From a virus: 64,000 nucleotides of DNA. The translations under genes were made by a program, and so were the position numbers. Location: positions 1 to 64,000 of IMG/VR virus record IMGVR_UViG_3300035070_002626. One strand, written 5' to 3'. The notes beneath the pieces are model-generated. The model ran no database searches. It worked only from the letters and a program-made list of their open reading frames with translations, and had not been told where the DNA came from. Below are positions 21,962-35,763 of this stretch, piece by piece. Numbering within the stretch: position 1 is the first letter of the stretch; every line of letters starts with the position of its first letter.

Positions 21962-22219
21962 TTACACATAATTAGCCAGGTTATCTTCTTCTTCGTCTTT
22001 TTCTTCTTGATGCCTAGTGATGATTTCTTCCATTAGTTCACGACCAACCAACCCTTGTTCAATTTCGCGAAGTGCTGTCATAGCTTTGTTGCCCGGCTTG
22101 GTAATAAGTGGAGGGTCGCCGCGACCAATTTGCCGTGCACGTTCTACTGCAATCACAATGAGATCATATGGCGATCCACCAACGTTTTTGCGGCCTTTAT
22201 TGTTACTGATTCGAGCCAT
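21962..22219 (-). CDS. rpoZ: RNA polymerase omega subunit homologue
   Basis: An 85-residue RpoZ-like protein. It begins MARIS, continues with GGSPYDLIVIAVERARQI (matching the omega FDLVLVAARRARQ helix) and has KAMTALREIEQGLV, the omega TVIALREIEEGLI block. Omega binds the beta-prime subunit and stabilises RNA polymerase. A phage copy could replace or alter host omega. Shine-Dalgarno AGGAG lies 7 nt before ATG 22219. The gene has an excellent sigma70 promoter (22301-22329) and a 9-bp leader hairpin, so host polymerase should read it strongly. Confidence 0.88.
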   Translation of the reverse strand: MARISNNKGRKNVGGSPYDLIVIAVERARQIGRGDPPLITKPGNKAMTALREIEQGLVGRELMEEIITRHQEEKDEEEDNLANYV

Positions 22220-23285: not shown

Positions 23286-24089
23286 TTAGAATTTAAAGGA
23301 TAGGCTTACTTTTGGTGTTAGGTCTTCAGTGTTAAGGTCATAGTTGATGCCCGATGTTAATTCAGCACCTGCGAAACCCATTACATGCTCGCCGCCAATG
23401 TTTTGACTCATGTCATCTTCGTCACCGTTGATGTATGCTGTGAGACCATTATCAGCATTTACCGTACCCTCGTATGCCCAATGATTTGCATCATTGTCAT
23501 ATGTGAGTAGACTACCCAATTCTAGTGATCCTGCATTAATTCCGGAAAGTTCACCGCCCCATACATAGTTTTTACTTGTACGGTTATAATCTACACTTGC
23601 TGTTACGTCTGCAATACCTGCATCCATTGTGTATGCACCTTGTAGGTTGCTTACTTCTGCAATGTCTGTTGTGTAGCTGGAAAGACCAATTGCTACACTT
23701 GCTGCACCTGATGTTACCATTAGTGACTCGGTCATTGCTGGTTTTGTTAGTGTACCAGTAGCACCTGCAGCCGCTGTTGTTTCTGGCATTAGGTTGTTGT
23801 TGTCACCAAATGCTAGGTCGAGACCGTTTACTGTAGTTCCTACAGTCCATGTGTCTAATGTCAATGAATTGCCGTCTGTTGCTTTAAAGTCTAGGTCAAC
23901 AGTTGCAACATCGCCTGCATCAATGTCTAGTTCAACACCCATTGTGCCTTTGTATTTGTTGCTTCCGTTTTCAGCAAAGTCAAGATTTATTGCACCTGAC
24001 AATACTGGAGCAACCGGAGTTGCTGTGTCTTCTGCTAGTGCAGATGTAGCAATCATTGCAGCTACCGTTGCTAGTACGAATGTACGCAT
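23286..24089 (-). CDS. Outer-membrane beta-barrel (porin-like) protein
   Basis: A 267-residue protein with a signal peptide (RTFVLATVAAMIATSALA, cut before ED). It has alternating amphipathic strands and Gly/Asp/Asn-rich turns throughout, and ends VSLSFKF with a terminal Phe, the BAM recognition signal of outer-membrane barrels. No cysteines. ATG 24089 is chosen for its GAGGAAA site; the ATG at 24104 would lengthen the signal peptide. It resembles small alphaproteobacterial porins and is likely inserted in the host outer membrane. A phage-encoded porin could change nutrient uptake or block receptors. A leader hairpin and a 3' hairpin flank it. Confidence 0.82.
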   Translation of the reverse strand: MRTFVLATVAAMIATSALAEDTATPVAPVLSGAINLDFAENGSNKYKGTMGVELDIDAGDVATVDLDFKATDGNSLTLDTWTVGTTVNGLDLAFGDNNNLMPETTAAAGATGTLTKPAMTESLMVTSGAASVAIGLSSYTTDIAEVSNLQGAYTMDAGIADVTASVDYNRTSKNYVWGGELSGINAGSLELGSLLTYDNDANHWAYEGTVNADNGLTAYINGDEDDMSQNIGGEHVMGFAGAELTSGINYDLNTEDLTPKVSLSFKF

Positions 24090-24101
24090 TTTAAATTTCC
24101 T

Positions 24102-24158
24102 CATAATTAATGATTTTCTCGTGAGCAGGATTCTCTTTTGCTCAACGTATTAATTATG
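24102..24158 (-). promoter_or_regulatory. Long leader stem-loop abutting the porin ribosome site
   Basis: CATAATTAAT (24158-24149) pairs perfectly with ATTAATTATG (24111-24102), with an inner GAGCA/TGCTC stem. The 3' strand touches the GAGG ribosome site, so folding could affect porin translation. Confidence 0.5.
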
Positions 24159-24197: not shown

Positions 24198-24521
24198 TAA
24201 TAAGATAAAATGAGAATGTCACATTGCTGCAACACTCTCTTGATCGTTCTGTTGCTAGGTGATCCACCCCGGGAGCCTAACTAGGCTGCCATTGCCATTT
24301 CTGGCGCTCTATTTGCGTTTGCATTTAGAAAGTTTGTTCGCGGTAACGGCGCTTACATCCCGGTAACTCCACTCTGCTATCTCGTCAGTCGATCCTAGTT
24401 CTGCCCCATCATAATTACTCTACGCCGTAAATTTGTAGTTTTTACGCTACAAAGTAATTATGGTGGAGCAGCGCGGTACTGCCCCGCGGTCCTGTCCGTA
24501 TTCACATCACTTCAACGTTAC
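24198..24521 (-). ncRNA. ssrA: Circularly permuted two-piece tmRNA
   Basis: Reading the minus strand, the acceptor piece comes first: T-arm CGCGG-GGCAGTA-CCGCG, then CTGCTCC-A-CCA (CCA at 24463-24461). A 53-nt intervening segment follows (24460-24408) with a TAATTACT/AGTAATTA stem. The coding piece then starts GGGGCAG (24407), which pairs with CTGCTCC (one G-U), and continues AACTAGGATCGAC, the tmRNA D-loop hallmark. The tag frame is 24322-24281: A-N-A-N-R-A-P-E-M-A-M-A-A-stop, ending in a ClpXP-type degron. This is the alphaproteobacterial permuted layout. It would rescue stalled ribosomes and tag products. Outer ends are estimated from the promoter and terminator. Confidence 0.9.
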
Positions 24522-24527
24522 AATCTA

Positions 24528-24556
24528 TTTATACACTAGTATTAGTTGTTTGTCAA
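24528..24556 (-). promoter_or_regulatory. Sigma70-type promoter for the tmRNA
   Basis: TTGACA (24556-24551), 17-nt spacer, TATAAA (24533-24528). It predicts a start near 24521. The -10 also reads TATAAATAG, close to the T4-type late promoter, so it may serve both phases. Confidence 0.78.
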
Positions 24557-26181: not shown

Positions 26182-26424
26182 TTAATCGTAGCCTAGCACT
26201 GCAACTTTTTCACGTTCTTCTTCGTGTATTTCATTTAGCCTAAATTTGTAAGCTCGTTCAAACCCGTCCTCGTGCACAACATTTTCGTGATTACCCCAAA
26301 TTCTTTTGAAATATGAATCGTATAATTTTTTGATGGTTGTGTCTGATTCGGACTTGTCAATTAATTGGCCTTTGATGATCCAATTAAAACGGTTGGCTTC
26401 TTTACGTACATATGGACTGCACAT
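26182..26424 (-). CDS. Small charged protein, unknown
   Basis: An 80-residue protein, rich in charged and aromatic residues (KEANRFNWIIKGQLIDKSE, YDSYFKRIWGNHEN, AYKFRLNEIHEEEREK). Mostly helical. Its ATG has AGG in GGAAAGGTCCCACC about 8 nt upstream. No family recognised. It is divergent from the oxygenase at 26543. Confidence 0.6.
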   Translation of the reverse strand: MCSPYVRKEANRFNWIIKGQLIDKSESDTTIKKLYDSYFKRIWGNHENVVHEDGFERAYKFRLNEIHEEEREKVAVLGYD

Positions 26425-31223: not shown

Positions 31224-31940
31224 TTATACTGTATCTACTTGTTCGGTTAAAATTCTAAAAGTGTCGTTCCAGTCAGCAACTTTGTATGATTTGCCTCTGT
31301 TTTGTTCAGCTATTGCATCTGCTAAAGGGGCGTCATTGCCGCCGGGGAAAATCGCATCACCAAAAAAATGTAGTTCGTCAGTGTCGGCAAAATCAACTAA
31401 TATCTGACTTTTGTTATTGCCTTTTGGTGCAATATCTAATCCTGTTTCCCCACCTGATGTAGCAAGTAACTCTGGAAACATTAAGTTAAATGATTTAACA
31501 ATCCTAGCACGTTCACGTTGTGCTTTATCCCATGTAACGTATAATGCACGTTCGGTTAAACTAGCGTTACGACCTACTACACTAAAGTTTACCATACCAG
31601 ATCGTTCTTCGATGTGATTGCCAGTGCGTACTGGAAATTTACTTTCGTACTCACAACTGTCTAAGAAATACCTGGCAAGATCGGGTAACCTCCAATTACT
31701 AGTACGAACATTTTTATCGCCTTGCCACACATCACTACCAGAACATTGGTAAACACGCTGACATTTGTGGTAAATGTACTCGCCAATTTGTTCGACAGTT
31801 TTAGGTTTGTCGCTCCCAGTGACAAGATACACAAGATTGTTTTCACAAAACTTGCTAAACCACACAGCAAATTGTTTGTCCATGTGCTGCCTGCTATCAG
31901 TAAGTGTACCGTCTACATCAAATATGTACTTTTTTGCCAT
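31224..31940 (-). CDS. Eukaryotic-type phosphomannomutase (HAD superfamily)
   Basis: A 238-residue HAD protein of the PMM2 type, which converts mannose-6-phosphate and mannose-1-phosphate for GDP-mannose. KKYIFDVDGTLTDSR (residues 3-17) is HAD motif I, with the nucleophile and acid Asp pair. The PMM2-specific blocks are RTGNHIEERSGMVNFSVVGR, then SGGETGLDIAPKGNNKSQIL and HFFGDAIFPGGNDAPL. Bacteria normally use the unrelated ManB/AlgC type, so this is probably a transferred gene. It lies between tRNA-Gly and carbamoyltransferase 2 (23 bp overlap). GDP-mannose supply to a glycan is the likely role. Confidence 0.88.
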   Translation of the reverse strand: MAKKYIFDVDGTLTDSRQHMDKQFAVWFSKFCENNLVYLVTGSDKPKTVEQIGEYIYHKCQRVYQCSGSDVWQGDKNVRTSNWRLPDLARYFLDSCEYESKFPVRTGNHIEERSGMVNFSVVGRNASLTERALYVTWDKAQRERARIVKSFNLMFPELLATSGGETGLDIAPKGNNKSQILVDFADTDELHFFGDAIFPGGNDAPLADAIAEQNRGKSYKVADWNDTFRILTEQVDTV

Positions 31941-33444
31941 CTTCTTTCCTGATTACATAATTGTTAATTATTAATACATCAAGACCGCATTTCTTAAATG
32001 TGGCAACTGCATCCTCGGGTGTTTCTACAATAGGCTCCTGGCAGTTGAAGCTGGTGTTGAGCAACATAGGAACGCCTGTTAGGGTATAGAATGCATTTAT
32101 TAAGTCGTAGTAGCAAGAATTAAACTCGCGCTGTACAGTCTGTATACGTGCTGTGCCGTCTACATGTGTTACACCAGGAATAGTATTACTTGTAACTGGC
32201 ATGATACGGCTCATGTACGGACTAGGCTGGTTGGTATCAAAATAATCTTGATAATGTTCATACAATACACTTGGCGCAAATGGTCTGAAGTCTTCACGCA
32301 GTTTAATTTTACTGTTGATAATATCTTTAATATCTGGCTTGCGTGGATCTGCAAGTATACTCCGATTGCCTAACGCTCTGTGCCCGCTTTCGCTAGCACC
32401 CTGATACCATCCAACTATTGCACCATCGGCAATAGCAGCGGCAACTTCAGTGTATACTTCTTCCATTGATTTTTGTTGATAGTACAATCCGTTGAATATA
32501 GCAGTGTCTACAATGTAGTCTTCTCCTGCATACACTGTAGGAATATGTGTGTTACCATTTAAAATGTAATCAGCATGCATGTAAACGCCTAATGCCTGGC
32601 CTTCGTCACCAGGAGCCGGCGGCACATGTACATTTGTGTAATGCTTTGTAAACTCTTCATTCATATAACCGTTGTATGCAACTCCGCCTGCAATGCATAA
32701 ATTGTCTGATGTTTTAAGAGGATATACGTGTTTTGTAACAAGTTCAAATGTAACTTGTTGTAGCGTAAATGCTACATCCTCTTTAGCAACACGCTGTATA
32801 ATATCATGTGCACCGTCAGGGAGTCGTTGATTGGGATTTTCTAAATAACGATGAATCATTGTGTAAACTTCATCGTTATATTTTCCAAATCCTACCAAGC
32901 CCATAACCTTGCCGGCTTGGAGGAATTCAAATCCAAGATTCTGTGCTAATGTGTTCCAACACCCGCCAATTGACAGTTCCTTGGTCAAGTCAGTGATTGT
33001 ACCGTGTTTATTAATAAAGATACAATTAAAATTATAACCCTTGTCGTCAATCGCTAGTACATCACTTTCTTTAAAGCCTGAATTTAGAAATGCATAAGCA
33101 GCATGACTTTGGTGATGGTCGATATAGTAATAACTATCTGTGTGTAATCTATCCCATAGATTGTTTGGCTTAAACTTTAAAAAATCTGTGTCCGGTAAGG
33201 TCTCTTCTACTAAGTCTTCAACATATTCATGTCCTAAATTAGAAATAGTAAATGCAAATACTTGCTCTTTATTATAGTTAGGCAAGAAATGGTCGTCGAA
33301 AAAATCCCTACAGGGCACAGGGTCACGCAAGAAATCCGGATTAAGATTATGCTTTACTCTGGTGTGCCGTTCTATTTGGTTATGAACCAGACCGTTGTAT
33401 GTATTGTGATCGTGGTGATTTACTGCTATAGAAAATATTTTCAT
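31918..33444 (-). CDS. NodU/CmcH-family carbamoyltransferase (copy 2)
   Basis: A 508-residue carbamoyltransferase, divergent from copy 1. DHHQSHAAYAFL (metal-binding His set), then SGHRALGNRSILADPRKP, THVDGTARIQTV and LLNTSFNCQEP follow the family order; the usual EFGPR is ESGHR here. Start ATG 33444 has GAGAG 7 nt upstream; the longer frame to 33498 runs through the promoter. It overlaps the phosphomannomutase start, and a beta-sandwich-like gene lies just upstream. The acceptor is likely a mannose-derived sugar, by association only. Confidence 0.9.
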   Translation of the reverse strand: MKIFSIAVNHHDHNTYNGLVHNQIERHTRVKHNLNPDFLRDPVPCRDFFDDHFLPNYNKEQVFAFTISNLGHEYVEDLVEETLPDTDFLKFKPNNLWDRLHTDSYYYIDHHQSHAAYAFLNSGFKESDVLAIDDKGYNFNCIFINKHGTITDLTKELSIGGCWNTLAQNLGFEFLQAGKVMGLVGFGKYNDEVYTMIHRYLENPNQRLPDGAHDIIQRVAKEDVAFTLQQVTFELVTKHVYPLKTSDNLCIAGGVAYNGYMNEEFTKHYTNVHVPPAPGDEGQALGVYMHADYILNGNTHIPTVYAGEDYIVDTAIFNGLYYQQKSMEEVYTEVAAAIADGAIVGWYQGASESGHRALGNRSILADPRKPDIKDIINSKIKLREDFRPFAPSVLYEHYQDYFDTNQPSPYMSRIMPVTSNTIPGVTHVDGTARIQTVQREFNSCYYDLINAFYTLTGVPMLLNTSFNCQEPIVETPEDAVATFKKCGLDVLIINNYVIRKEDGKKVHI

Positions 33445-33468
33445 CAGACTCTCTGTTTTGTTAAACAT

Positions 33469-33498
33469 ATAATAACACTGATAGTTGCTATACGTCAA
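33469..33498 (-). promoter_or_regulatory. Sigma70-like promoter for carbamoyltransferase 2
   Basis: TTGACG (33498-33493), 18-nt spacer, TATTAT (33474-33469). One base off consensus in the -35 and slightly long spacing. Confidence 0.6.
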
Positions 33499-34099: not shown

Positions 34100-35653
34100 T
34101 TAAAAATTTTGCTTTGAATGTGCCCATGGTTCAATGATATCAGCTGATAAACTGTTCTGTTCTCGATCAAACTTTACATTGTTAATCATAGTTCCAGTAT
34201 TATCTGTTAGTAGCTGAACTTCGTTCCAGCTACTCAGCAATTGCTTTGTATAGTTTGCTGCTTCGAAAACTGGATACCCCAATTCTTCAACATGTGATTG
34301 TAGGATAATCCTTCTCTTCAATCGTTCCTTGTATGTTAATGTCGGATTATCAACACAAACCCAATCATTAACATGATCATTGTCCTGCACTAGGTTATAT
34401 TTTTCTCTATCATCATATAATGGAGTGCGTTTTAATAGATTCAGTGTAAGTCCTAAATTTACTTCTTCGATTGTGCCGTTATCTAGATATGGCTTGTATC
34501 GAGTAAACATCTCTTTTGTTAAATCAAAATCTTCTATGGTCTCTGTAGGATACCCTACAATCATTAACATACGTACTTTGATCCCTACTCTATCTAGTTG
34601 GGAAATGCTGTAGTTAAGATCTTCTTCGCTATATCCCTTTTTCATGTGTTCTCTCACTGCCGGAGAACCGCTTTCGATTCCAACTAACATTGTACCTGCA
34701 CCAGCTGCCTTCATGACATCAAAGTCTTCGGGTGGCATCTGTTTTGGCCCACGTACAATAAAATGGGTGTCCCATATAAACTTTTTTTCTTCTGGTAGTG
34801 TTTTTCTGTATTCAGCTAACTCTAGAGTCATTTCCCTAAATGCTTTCATACTACCATTAATTAGACTATCTGTAAATCTAAATGCAGTTGCACCATATGC
34901 TTCAACTTGTTGACGCATTTCGTCAGCAATATTTTTGCCACTGCGATAGTAAAACTTTGGCCACATACTTGCAACATCACAAAATGTGCATTTTCTTACA
35001 CATCCTCTACTGCCAGTAATCGGCAATGCTTCCAACCCTTTGGAATTAGTGTAGGTTTTTAGTTCGTAGTCGTCATAATTGGGAAAAGCTAAACTATCAA
35101 CATCTACGATTTGCTGAGGAGGCTTGCCATTAATTCCAGGATAATCAATGTTTCCTTTAAGTAACTCGACTAATGCAAGTTCTCCTTCGCCCCGTATATA
35201 TGCGTCAATGATACGATTTTCGTGCAGAGACTCTGCAAATTTAAAATCTGTAGCAATTCCGCCGCCTCCGATTACAATTTTAATAGCAGGGTTGAGCTTT
35301 TTAATTGCAACAGATAGTAAGCGAGTTGCTCGTTGACTATTATAACTAAACACACTCATACCAACCCATGTTGGATTTTGATTAACAATTTTTTCGGCCC
35401 ACGATTCGATAACAGGAGCTAATAATTTCCATGTTTTATTATTATAGAATGTGTGATAAAAAAAGAAGTTGTCAATGGCGTTATGTAGTTCGTGATTATG
35501 AAACTGCTGATCAATTTCGGCATTAAGGTCAAAGATAATACTACTAAATCCGTGTGCAGATAAACTTCCCTTTAGCAATGCTGCTCCTGCTGGAGTATAC
35601 CCAAAATCGTCAACGATTCTCGGCGGTATTACTAACACAATATCTTTATTCAT
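34100..35653 (-). CDS. B12-binding radical SAM protein
   Basis: A 517-residue class B radical SAM enzyme. The N-terminal half is a cobalamin-binding Rossmann-like domain (DIVLVIPPRIVDDFGYTPAG, VIGGGGIATDF). The core has SRGCVRKCTFCDVAS (CxxxCxxC, about residue 205), FTDSLINGSM and GIESGSPAVREHMKKG, typical of the methyltransferase/oxidase group. Such enzymes methylate unactivated carbons or cut and join complex metabolites. ATG 35653 is preferred; ATG 35677 is an alternative, with no better ribosome site. It lies downstream of tRNA-Thr on the minus strand. The substrate is unknown. Confidence 0.87.
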   Translation of the reverse strand: MNKDIVLVIPPRIVDDFGYTPAGAALLKGSLSAHGFSSIIFDLNAEIDQQFHNHELHNAIDNFFFYHTFYNNKTWKLLAPVIESWAEKIVNQNPTWVGMSVFSYNSQRATRLLSVAIKKLNPAIKIVIGGGGIATDFKFAESLHENRIIDAYIRGEGELALVELLKGNIDYPGINGKPPQQIVDVDSLAFPNYDDYELKTYTNSKGLEALPITGSRGCVRKCTFCDVASMWPKFYYRSGKNIADEMRQQVEAYGATAFRFTDSLINGSMKAFREMTLELAEYRKTLPEEKKFIWDTHFIVRGPKQMPPEDFDVMKAAGAGTMLVGIESGSPAVREHMKKGYSEEDLNYSISQLDRVGIKVRMLMIVGYPTETIEDFDLTKEMFTRYKPYLDNGTIEEVNLGLTLNLLKRTPLYDDREKYNLVQDNDHVNDWVCVDNPTLTYKERLKRRIILQSHVEELGYPVFEAANYTKQLLSSWNEVQLLTDNTGTMINNVKFDREQNSLSADIIEPWAHSKQNF

Positions 35654-35687
35654 ATTTCTATTTACCGCTAATCGCATATTTGTGTTA

Positions 35688-35763
35688 TGGTGCCCCAAGA
35701 GAGACTCGAACTCCCGACCTACTGATTACAAATCAGTTGCTCTACCAGCTGAGCTATTGGGGC
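35688..35763 (-). tRNA. tRNA-Thr (TGT)
   Basis: Acceptor GCCCCAA/TTGGGGC, D-arm AGCTCAGCTGGTAGAGC, anticodon stem ACTGA/TCAGT around TTTGTAA (TGT), T-arm GGGAGTTCGAGTCTCTC, discriminator A, encoded CCA (35690-35688). Confidence 0.95.

Follow-up and report, generated by a model that had tools for sequence, protein, structure and literature searches.

An alpha-type two-piece tmRNA gene with a composite promoter in a T4-like jumbo phage, and probable protein genes nested in the intervening segments of its relatives

The window analysed here (64,000 nt) is the start of a 299,910-bp IMG/VR record that belongs to a T4-like jumbo phage, with a T4-type DNA polymerase, a gp23 capsid protein and a gp55-type late sigma factor (phrog_234 match, E 2.7e-25, record positions 261695-262039). 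An alpha-type circularly permuted tmRNA is encoded on its minus strand at approximately 24521-24240, between a promoter and a terminator-like hairpin. The parts of the locus and two nearby genes are as follows.

24526..24556, minus strand: composite promoter, TTGACA, a 17-nt spacer and TATAAATA, matching exactly at 14/14 bases
24556-24551, minus strand: TTGACA, -35 box of sigma-70 type
24533-24526, minus strand: TATAAATA, -10 box of T4-late type, with TG just before it
24461..24521, minus strand: acceptor piece (5' part, T-arm, acceptor strand and ACCA), from the RF04321 and RF01849 alignments, pairing and covariation
24488-24472, minus strand: T-arm CGCGG-GGCAGTA-CCGCG, the T-stem CGCGG/CCGCG being perfect
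24471-24465, minus strand: acceptor strand CTGCTCC
24464-24461, minus strand: ACCA, the CCA being encoded in the gene
24408..24460, minus strand: intervening segment of 53 nt, self-pairing (sequence and fold)
24240..24407, minus strand: coding piece (GGGGCAG, GGATCGAC, tag region and 3' end), from sequence, Rfam and pairing, with an approximate mature 3' end
24407-24401, minus strand: GGGGCAG, pairing 7/7 with the acceptor strand
24395-24388, minus strand: GGATCGAC
24281..24322, minus strand: tag frame, GCA...GCA GCC TAG, directly translated as ANANRAPEMAMAA-stop
24212..24239, minus strand: terminator-like hairpin of 12 pairs, then ATTTTATCTT (hairpin search)
23286..24104, minus strand: next gene downstream, a 272-aa predicted exported protein with a signal-like N terminus and a C-terminal Phe
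26182..26424, minus strand: 80-aa ORF, a free-standing homologue of a protein nested in the tmRNA genes of relatives (L826, L806, L813, L834; blastp 46% over 54 aa to L826, E 2e-11)

A preliminary description, drawn from the letters alone, had proposed a two-piece permuted tmRNA of alphaproteobacterial type at 24198-24556 and suggested Rfam covariance models as the check. Two of these match at full length, RF04321 (tmRNA_permuted) over 24521-24281 (104.6 bits, gathering 47, E 2.5e-19) and RF01849 (alpha_tmRNA) over 24573-24238 (101.3 bits, gathering 50, E 1.7e-26). Both matches are in permuted order and above the curated cut-off, which confirms the identification; by sequence and Rfam alignment alike, the acceptor/T-arm piece precedes the coding piece. 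The T-arm, the self-pairing spacer, the GGGGCAG pairing and GGATCGAC all lie on the minus strand where they had been placed, and the readable proteolysis-type tag is there, ANANRAPEMAMAA-stop at 24322-24281. The location thus stands, and the extent narrows: the RNA proper covers only about 24521-24240, the rest of the span being the promoter (24556-24526) and the terminator-like hairpin (24239-24212).

The acceptor helix GGGGCAG/CUGCUCC is paired 7/7, including a G3:U pair, which is an alanine identity determinant. As in a tmRNA, the tag frame has a GCN resume codon at its start and AA-stop at its end. The 272-nt precursor folds into a long hairpin in which the acceptor helix continues into the intervening segment (z -3.5, more stable than 200/200 shuffles), and the tmRNA region holds two terminator-like hairpins versus 0.3 expected from shuffles. 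The exact mature 5' end of the acceptor piece is probable rather than fixed, and the 53-nt segment would be expected to be removed in maturation.

The RNA itself belongs to a known kind. The preliminary description had named alphaproteobacteria and some picocyanobacteria as known carriers of permuted ssrA, and novelty for a phage copy would be too strong a claim: two-piece tmRNAs are published for phages Melnitz, Mosig and others, a survey of 18,146 phage genomes having yielded 133 unique tmRNA structures, 53 of them two-piece (PMC9004378), and permuted tmRNAs are common in IMG/VR, where a simple short pattern matches at least 120 loci. The role of these RNAs had been guessed. A DNA search with the window tmRNA against 50,697 phage records returned no match and no named phage; searches seeded with relatives reached Melnitz, HTVC008M, Mosig, Phosso, MD18, DSS3_MAL1 and RcRudolph. 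Melnitz (Methylophilales) and Mosig (Pelagibacter) resemble the window in being T4-like phages with gp55 that carry an alpha-type permuted tmRNA and a proteolysis-type tag. Melnitz shares exactly the same composite promoter, but its tag is ANDNYVPVDYALAA and its intervening segment has 142 nt with an ORF, in contrast to 53 nt without one. Melnitz also has an ssrA-linked glutamine riboswitch (PMC9004378); no Rfam riboswitch was found in the window at the gathering threshold. Contig G002:C57 has the exact composite promoter and a permuted tmRNA whose tag reads ANDNYAPEMAMAA from the sequence; it differs at two tag residues, Ala and Arg of the window tag being replaced by Asp and Tyr, and in a shorter intervening segment. 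Phosso, another T4-like jumbo phage, has a full-length permuted tmRNA (113 bits), but with a 410-nt intervening segment lacking an ORF, the tag ANDNVSTKVALAA and a degenerate promoter, TTGACT...TGTAAATA. The ssrA genes of alphaproteobacteria (RF01849) share permuted order, helices, G3:U and AA-ending tags with the window gene; they differ in lacking TTGACA-N17-TATAAATA (0/138) and in tags that start ANDN (72/79 parsed unique tags). What we did not find reported, in papers outside subscription, is the phage-specific promoter and the nested protein genes.

TTGACA, 17 nt and TATAAATA are conserved just upstream of the RNA in an alignment of relatives. Among the matches listed, all 14 bases agree at 61/120 phage loci, with few exceptions at a fixed distance, in a sample picked irrespective of promoter (tmRNA pattern, IMG/VR). 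For comparison with hosts the criterion was TTGAC-N16..19-TATAAATA; this occurs at 74/119 phage permuted tmRNA genes among the matches listed and at 0/138 alphaproteobacterial ssrA genes (p 3e-33, which overstates independence because the genes are related). A looser check for TATAAATA alone in the 140 nt upstream gave 2/125 host genes, and the 'bacterial' loci with the motif are two MAG contigs caught by the phage pattern, one of them equal in length (29,883 bp) to an IMG/VR viral record, plus an extra copy in a third genome. The signature cleanly separates phage from host ssrA and can thus mark ssrA genes of phages.

In TATAAATA one recognises the late box of T4; the -35 element is of the sigma-70 type. 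The same viral contigs have early promoters of the form TTGACA-N17-TATANT (TATAAT 38, TATAGT 23, TATATT 21), and in these contigs TTGACA-N17-TATAAATA occurs only three times outside matched tmRNAs: at a tRNA-Leu, at a second permuted tmRNA and at one unexplained site. Regardless of the -35 box, TATAAATA lies within 60 nt upstream of ORFs 48 times versus 5.4 expected, a strand-specific enrichment of about nine-fold in these phages, as would be expected of a late promoter box. We consider it about an even chance that the composite promoter is read both early, by sigma-70, and late, by the phage late sigma.

Somewhat short of an even chance is the alternative that TTGACA-N17-TATAAATA is only a strong sigma-70 promoter, passed down by common ancestry and never read late. 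The perfect -35 box, the 17-nt spacing and the extended TGn element all suit sigma-70. The sixth base of the -10 hexamer does not: sigma-70 prefers T there, and 63/74 distinct promoters have A, against the TATANT of early promoters in the same contigs; the identity of TATAAATA with the T4 late box and its enrichment upstream of ORFs likewise speak for late use. The named phages divide. The box is absent from the three without gp55; of those with gp55, Melnitz and a jumbo relative have the exact motif and Phosso a near one, whereas HTVC008M and Mosig have no motif at the tmRNA, which favours the sigma-70 reading (the Mosig tmRNA overlaps an upstream gene). The authors of the Melnitz work termed its ssrA promoter early (PMC9004378). 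Our literature search, which covered papers outside subscription, turned up no report of a composite promoter for a phage tmRNA, and the signature makes the early-versus-late question testable for these genes.

Copies elsewhere give some side observations. L114 (8154 onward) has two permuted tmRNA genes, L062 (6406 onward) a tRNA-Leu with the same composite promoter, and L125 (5437 onward) a composite promoter before a possibly structured RNA. The exact composite promoter has only two copies in the 300-kb genome of the window. The other, at record position 144452 on the minus strand (in L006), precedes a hairpin-like repeat and an ORF that may encode an Hsp20-type small heat-shock protein, so that two proteostasis genes, the tmRNA and the Hsp20-like ORF, may have the promoter in common. 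We also considered TATAAATA as the common late promoter of this genome. Its 16 copies in 299,910 bp weaken the idea, though the position of TATAAATA upstream of ORFs is strongly non-random; because the copies are so few, a general late-promoter role is not established here.

The intervening segment is shorter than 80 nt in 123/125 host genes and has 53 nt in the window; in phages it reaches about 275 nt, and in Phosso 410. The screen for nested ORFs took in, among the matches listed, 329 unique phage segments with a length of 105 nt or more. An ORF covers at least 60% of the segment in 58.7% of these, versus 10.2% of dinucleotide shuffles. At a coverage of 55% or more there are 198 ORF-bearing segments, grouped in 53 clusters; where segment length played no part in the sampling, such an ORF was present in 13/49 and 13/46 unique segments. 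Examples of the nested ORFs are the following.

L219, L248 and L258, permuted tmRNA segment of related phages: nested ORFs of 75 aa
L149, L178, L232 and L237, permuted tmRNA segment of related phages: nested ORFs of 62-64 aa
L283 and L299: nested ORFs of 52 aa
L852-L854: nested ORFs of 77-78 aa
L385 (Melnitz): also with a nested ORF

In-frame pN/pS is below 0.5 in 14/14 testable clusters, and the cluster average is 0.19 in frame versus 1.08 and 1.43 in the other frames. That the nested ORFs are protein-coding and under purifying selection is thus well supported by their patterns of substitution. They do not break the tmRNA, because a terminal stem of at least 7 bp is retained in 175/198 ORF-bearing segments (versus 5 after shuffling) and a readable tag in at least 160/198 loci; the acceptor helix is intact. 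In 114/198 the segment ends with the stop codon, one base ahead of GGGG. In the cultured phage Melnitz (L385) the 142-nt segment after 1586 contains GGAG and then the ORF, MFKWLSKTRLVVITRDYFRERNRKADAKIPKYLSG..., reading MFKWLSKTRLVVITRDYF...; the ORF has no stop inside the segment, its frame continuing into the tmRNA coding piece. Cleavage by RNase P would therefore leave the ORF without a stop, and the excised piece could possibly be a nonstop message, a substrate for the tmRNA itself, closing a feedback loop.

Several nested-ORF clusters have homologues outside any detected tmRNA. In the phage studied here these include the 80-aa ORF listed above and another copy near 65.5 kb of the record. 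Its own 53-nt segment contains no ORF, so the window gene is the cassette-free form. Putting promoter and segment together, we tentatively suggest, at slightly less than even odds, that phage permuted tmRNAs form a distinct bifunctional class. One precursor, from a hybrid early/late promoter found almost only on the tmRNA gene, would yield both a rescue RNA and a small-protein mRNA out of the segment that is normally discarded; the segment would be a recurrent landing site (53 ORF clusters, some with free-standing relatives), and the window gene a cassette-free member with one of the families present as a separate gene. If the nested genes are expressed, the arrangement would be an unusual one, with a protein encoded in the spacer that is cut out of a two-piece RNA; the literature search, again of papers outside subscription, returned no report of ORFs nested in tmRNA. 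Annotation can miss both the nested small proteins and the RNA, since ARAGORN, which found seven tRNAs in the window, missed the tmRNA gene there and the Phosso copy is unannotated in its record (L137, 349596-350198).

In the most likely mode of action, processing, charging, rescue and timing are inferences. A single precursor would be transcribed from TTGACA-N17-TATAAATA, initially by the host RNA polymerase bearing sigma-70, then by polymerase with the phage late sigma. Host tRNA-processing enzymes would excise the intervening hairpin, RNase P acting at the GGGG end and RNase Z or exonucleases at the CCA end. The two pieces would stay paired through the acceptor helix, be charged with alanine (G3:U) and, together with SmpB and EF-Tu of the host, release ribosomes that have stalled on broken messages; such messages would be plentiful during destruction of host mRNA. 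ANANRAPEMAMAA would be appended, directing products to host ClpXP-type proteases, and the phage would gain a supply of free ribosomes throughout infection. The preliminary description went further and spoke of phage control of ribosome rescue. This is overstated: there is no SmpB gene in the 299,910-bp record, so rescue would need host SmpB. Its suggestion of host-like tagging holds for the AA end of the tag; the tag is not identical to those of hosts, having ANAN where most have ANDN. Departures from ANDN are seen in 18/75 unique phage tags versus 7/79 host tags (p 0.015, ignoring relatedness; parsed unique tags, some tags being unparsed). The replacement may hint at altered adaptor use. A phage-specific tag chemistry was considered, and with so modest a difference from hosts it is a hint only.

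That missing SmpB and the altered tag, at a position that is mostly Asp in hosts, would also fit a decoy, an RNA that competes with host tmRNA for SmpB or ribosomes and so stops or diverts rescue by the host; phage DS6A has a tagless tmRNA that is reported to inhibit the endogenous one (PMC11915505). For a decoy, a complete tag frame with AA at its end would be superfluous, and one is retained here and in nearly all related phages, which counts against this explanation and leaves it improbable.

Conservation was examined in 66 distinct phage sets of acceptor and T-arm. Acceptor pair 5 takes the forms G-C, C-G, A-U and U-A without ever losing pairing (66/66); at pair 6, paired in 65/66, C-G or U-A predominates, and G3:U is present in all 66. 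Compensatory changes with pairing retained are thus seen at the variable positions of the acceptor (pairs 5-6) and of the T-stem (pairs 1-3), which excludes chance or decay. The relatives L038, L034, L046, L111, L036, L119 and L117 have 76-87% DNA identity over 140-295 nt, and close ones have in-frame tags (ANANRAPEMALAA in L117, ANDNYAPEMAMAA in L038). Sequence conservation of this kind marks the phage tmRNA as a maintained gene, and we put the probability that the feature is an intact, functional phage tmRNA at roughly 0.9. A host ssrA picked up by chance, without a role or decaying, is very unlikely by comparison. Phages can gain genes in this way, and permuted tmRNAs are common rather than universal among related phages (17/47 Melnitz-cluster contigs; PMC9004378), but all helices are intact with compensatory change, tags are conserved across many divergent phages, a terminator-like hairpin is present, and the promoter is of a phage type absent from host genes. 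Some bacterial sequence is possible in IMG/VR, yet a host fragment assembled into the viral record can be practically dismissed, as the gene is embedded in a single 299,910-bp contig that has T4-type genes, the gene downstream of it is again next to the tmRNA at 19 other viral loci, and the closest relatives found are viral and have the phage-type promoter in common.

The tmRNA does not by itself name the host clade, as the preliminary description had supposed: Melnitz has an alpha-type gene and infects a gammaproteobacterium (PMC9004378). We rejected host assignment from tmRNA type because type and host disagree in that phage. With the kind of RNA already known and the host claim too strong, the earlier interpretation is partly supported. 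The DNA polymerase is closest, among annotated phages, to those of Sinorhizobium phage Phosso (52%) and Agrobacterium phage Atu_ph07 (46%), an affinity that makes an alphaproteobacterial host likely, no more. Nearer still is a 335-kb contig, G002:C57 (L247, PBPT01000016.1), at 64% identity. It is filed in a Neomarinimicrobiota MAG, also carries the permuted tmRNA type, and is probably a misfiled jumbo phage. L248 (PALK01000009.1, 29,883 bp, in a Rickettsiales MAG) looks like a misbinned phage as well, and equals an IMG/VR viral record in bp.

The 272-aa protein encoded downstream of the tmRNA has no Pfam or PHROG match and may be outer-membrane-protein-like. Its homologues occur at 38 viral loci, and in 19/38 the start lies no more than 700 nt downstream of the tmRNA core. 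An 85-aa ORF at 21962-22219, some 2 kb away from the tmRNA, contains an RNA_pol_Rpb6/omega domain (E 5e-9) and can be read as a phage-encoded omega-like subunit of RNA polymerase. A carbamoyltransferase and a B12-binding radical SAM protein lie in one cluster (31918-33498 and 34100-35698), which suggests that DNA, a small molecule or surface sugars are modified.
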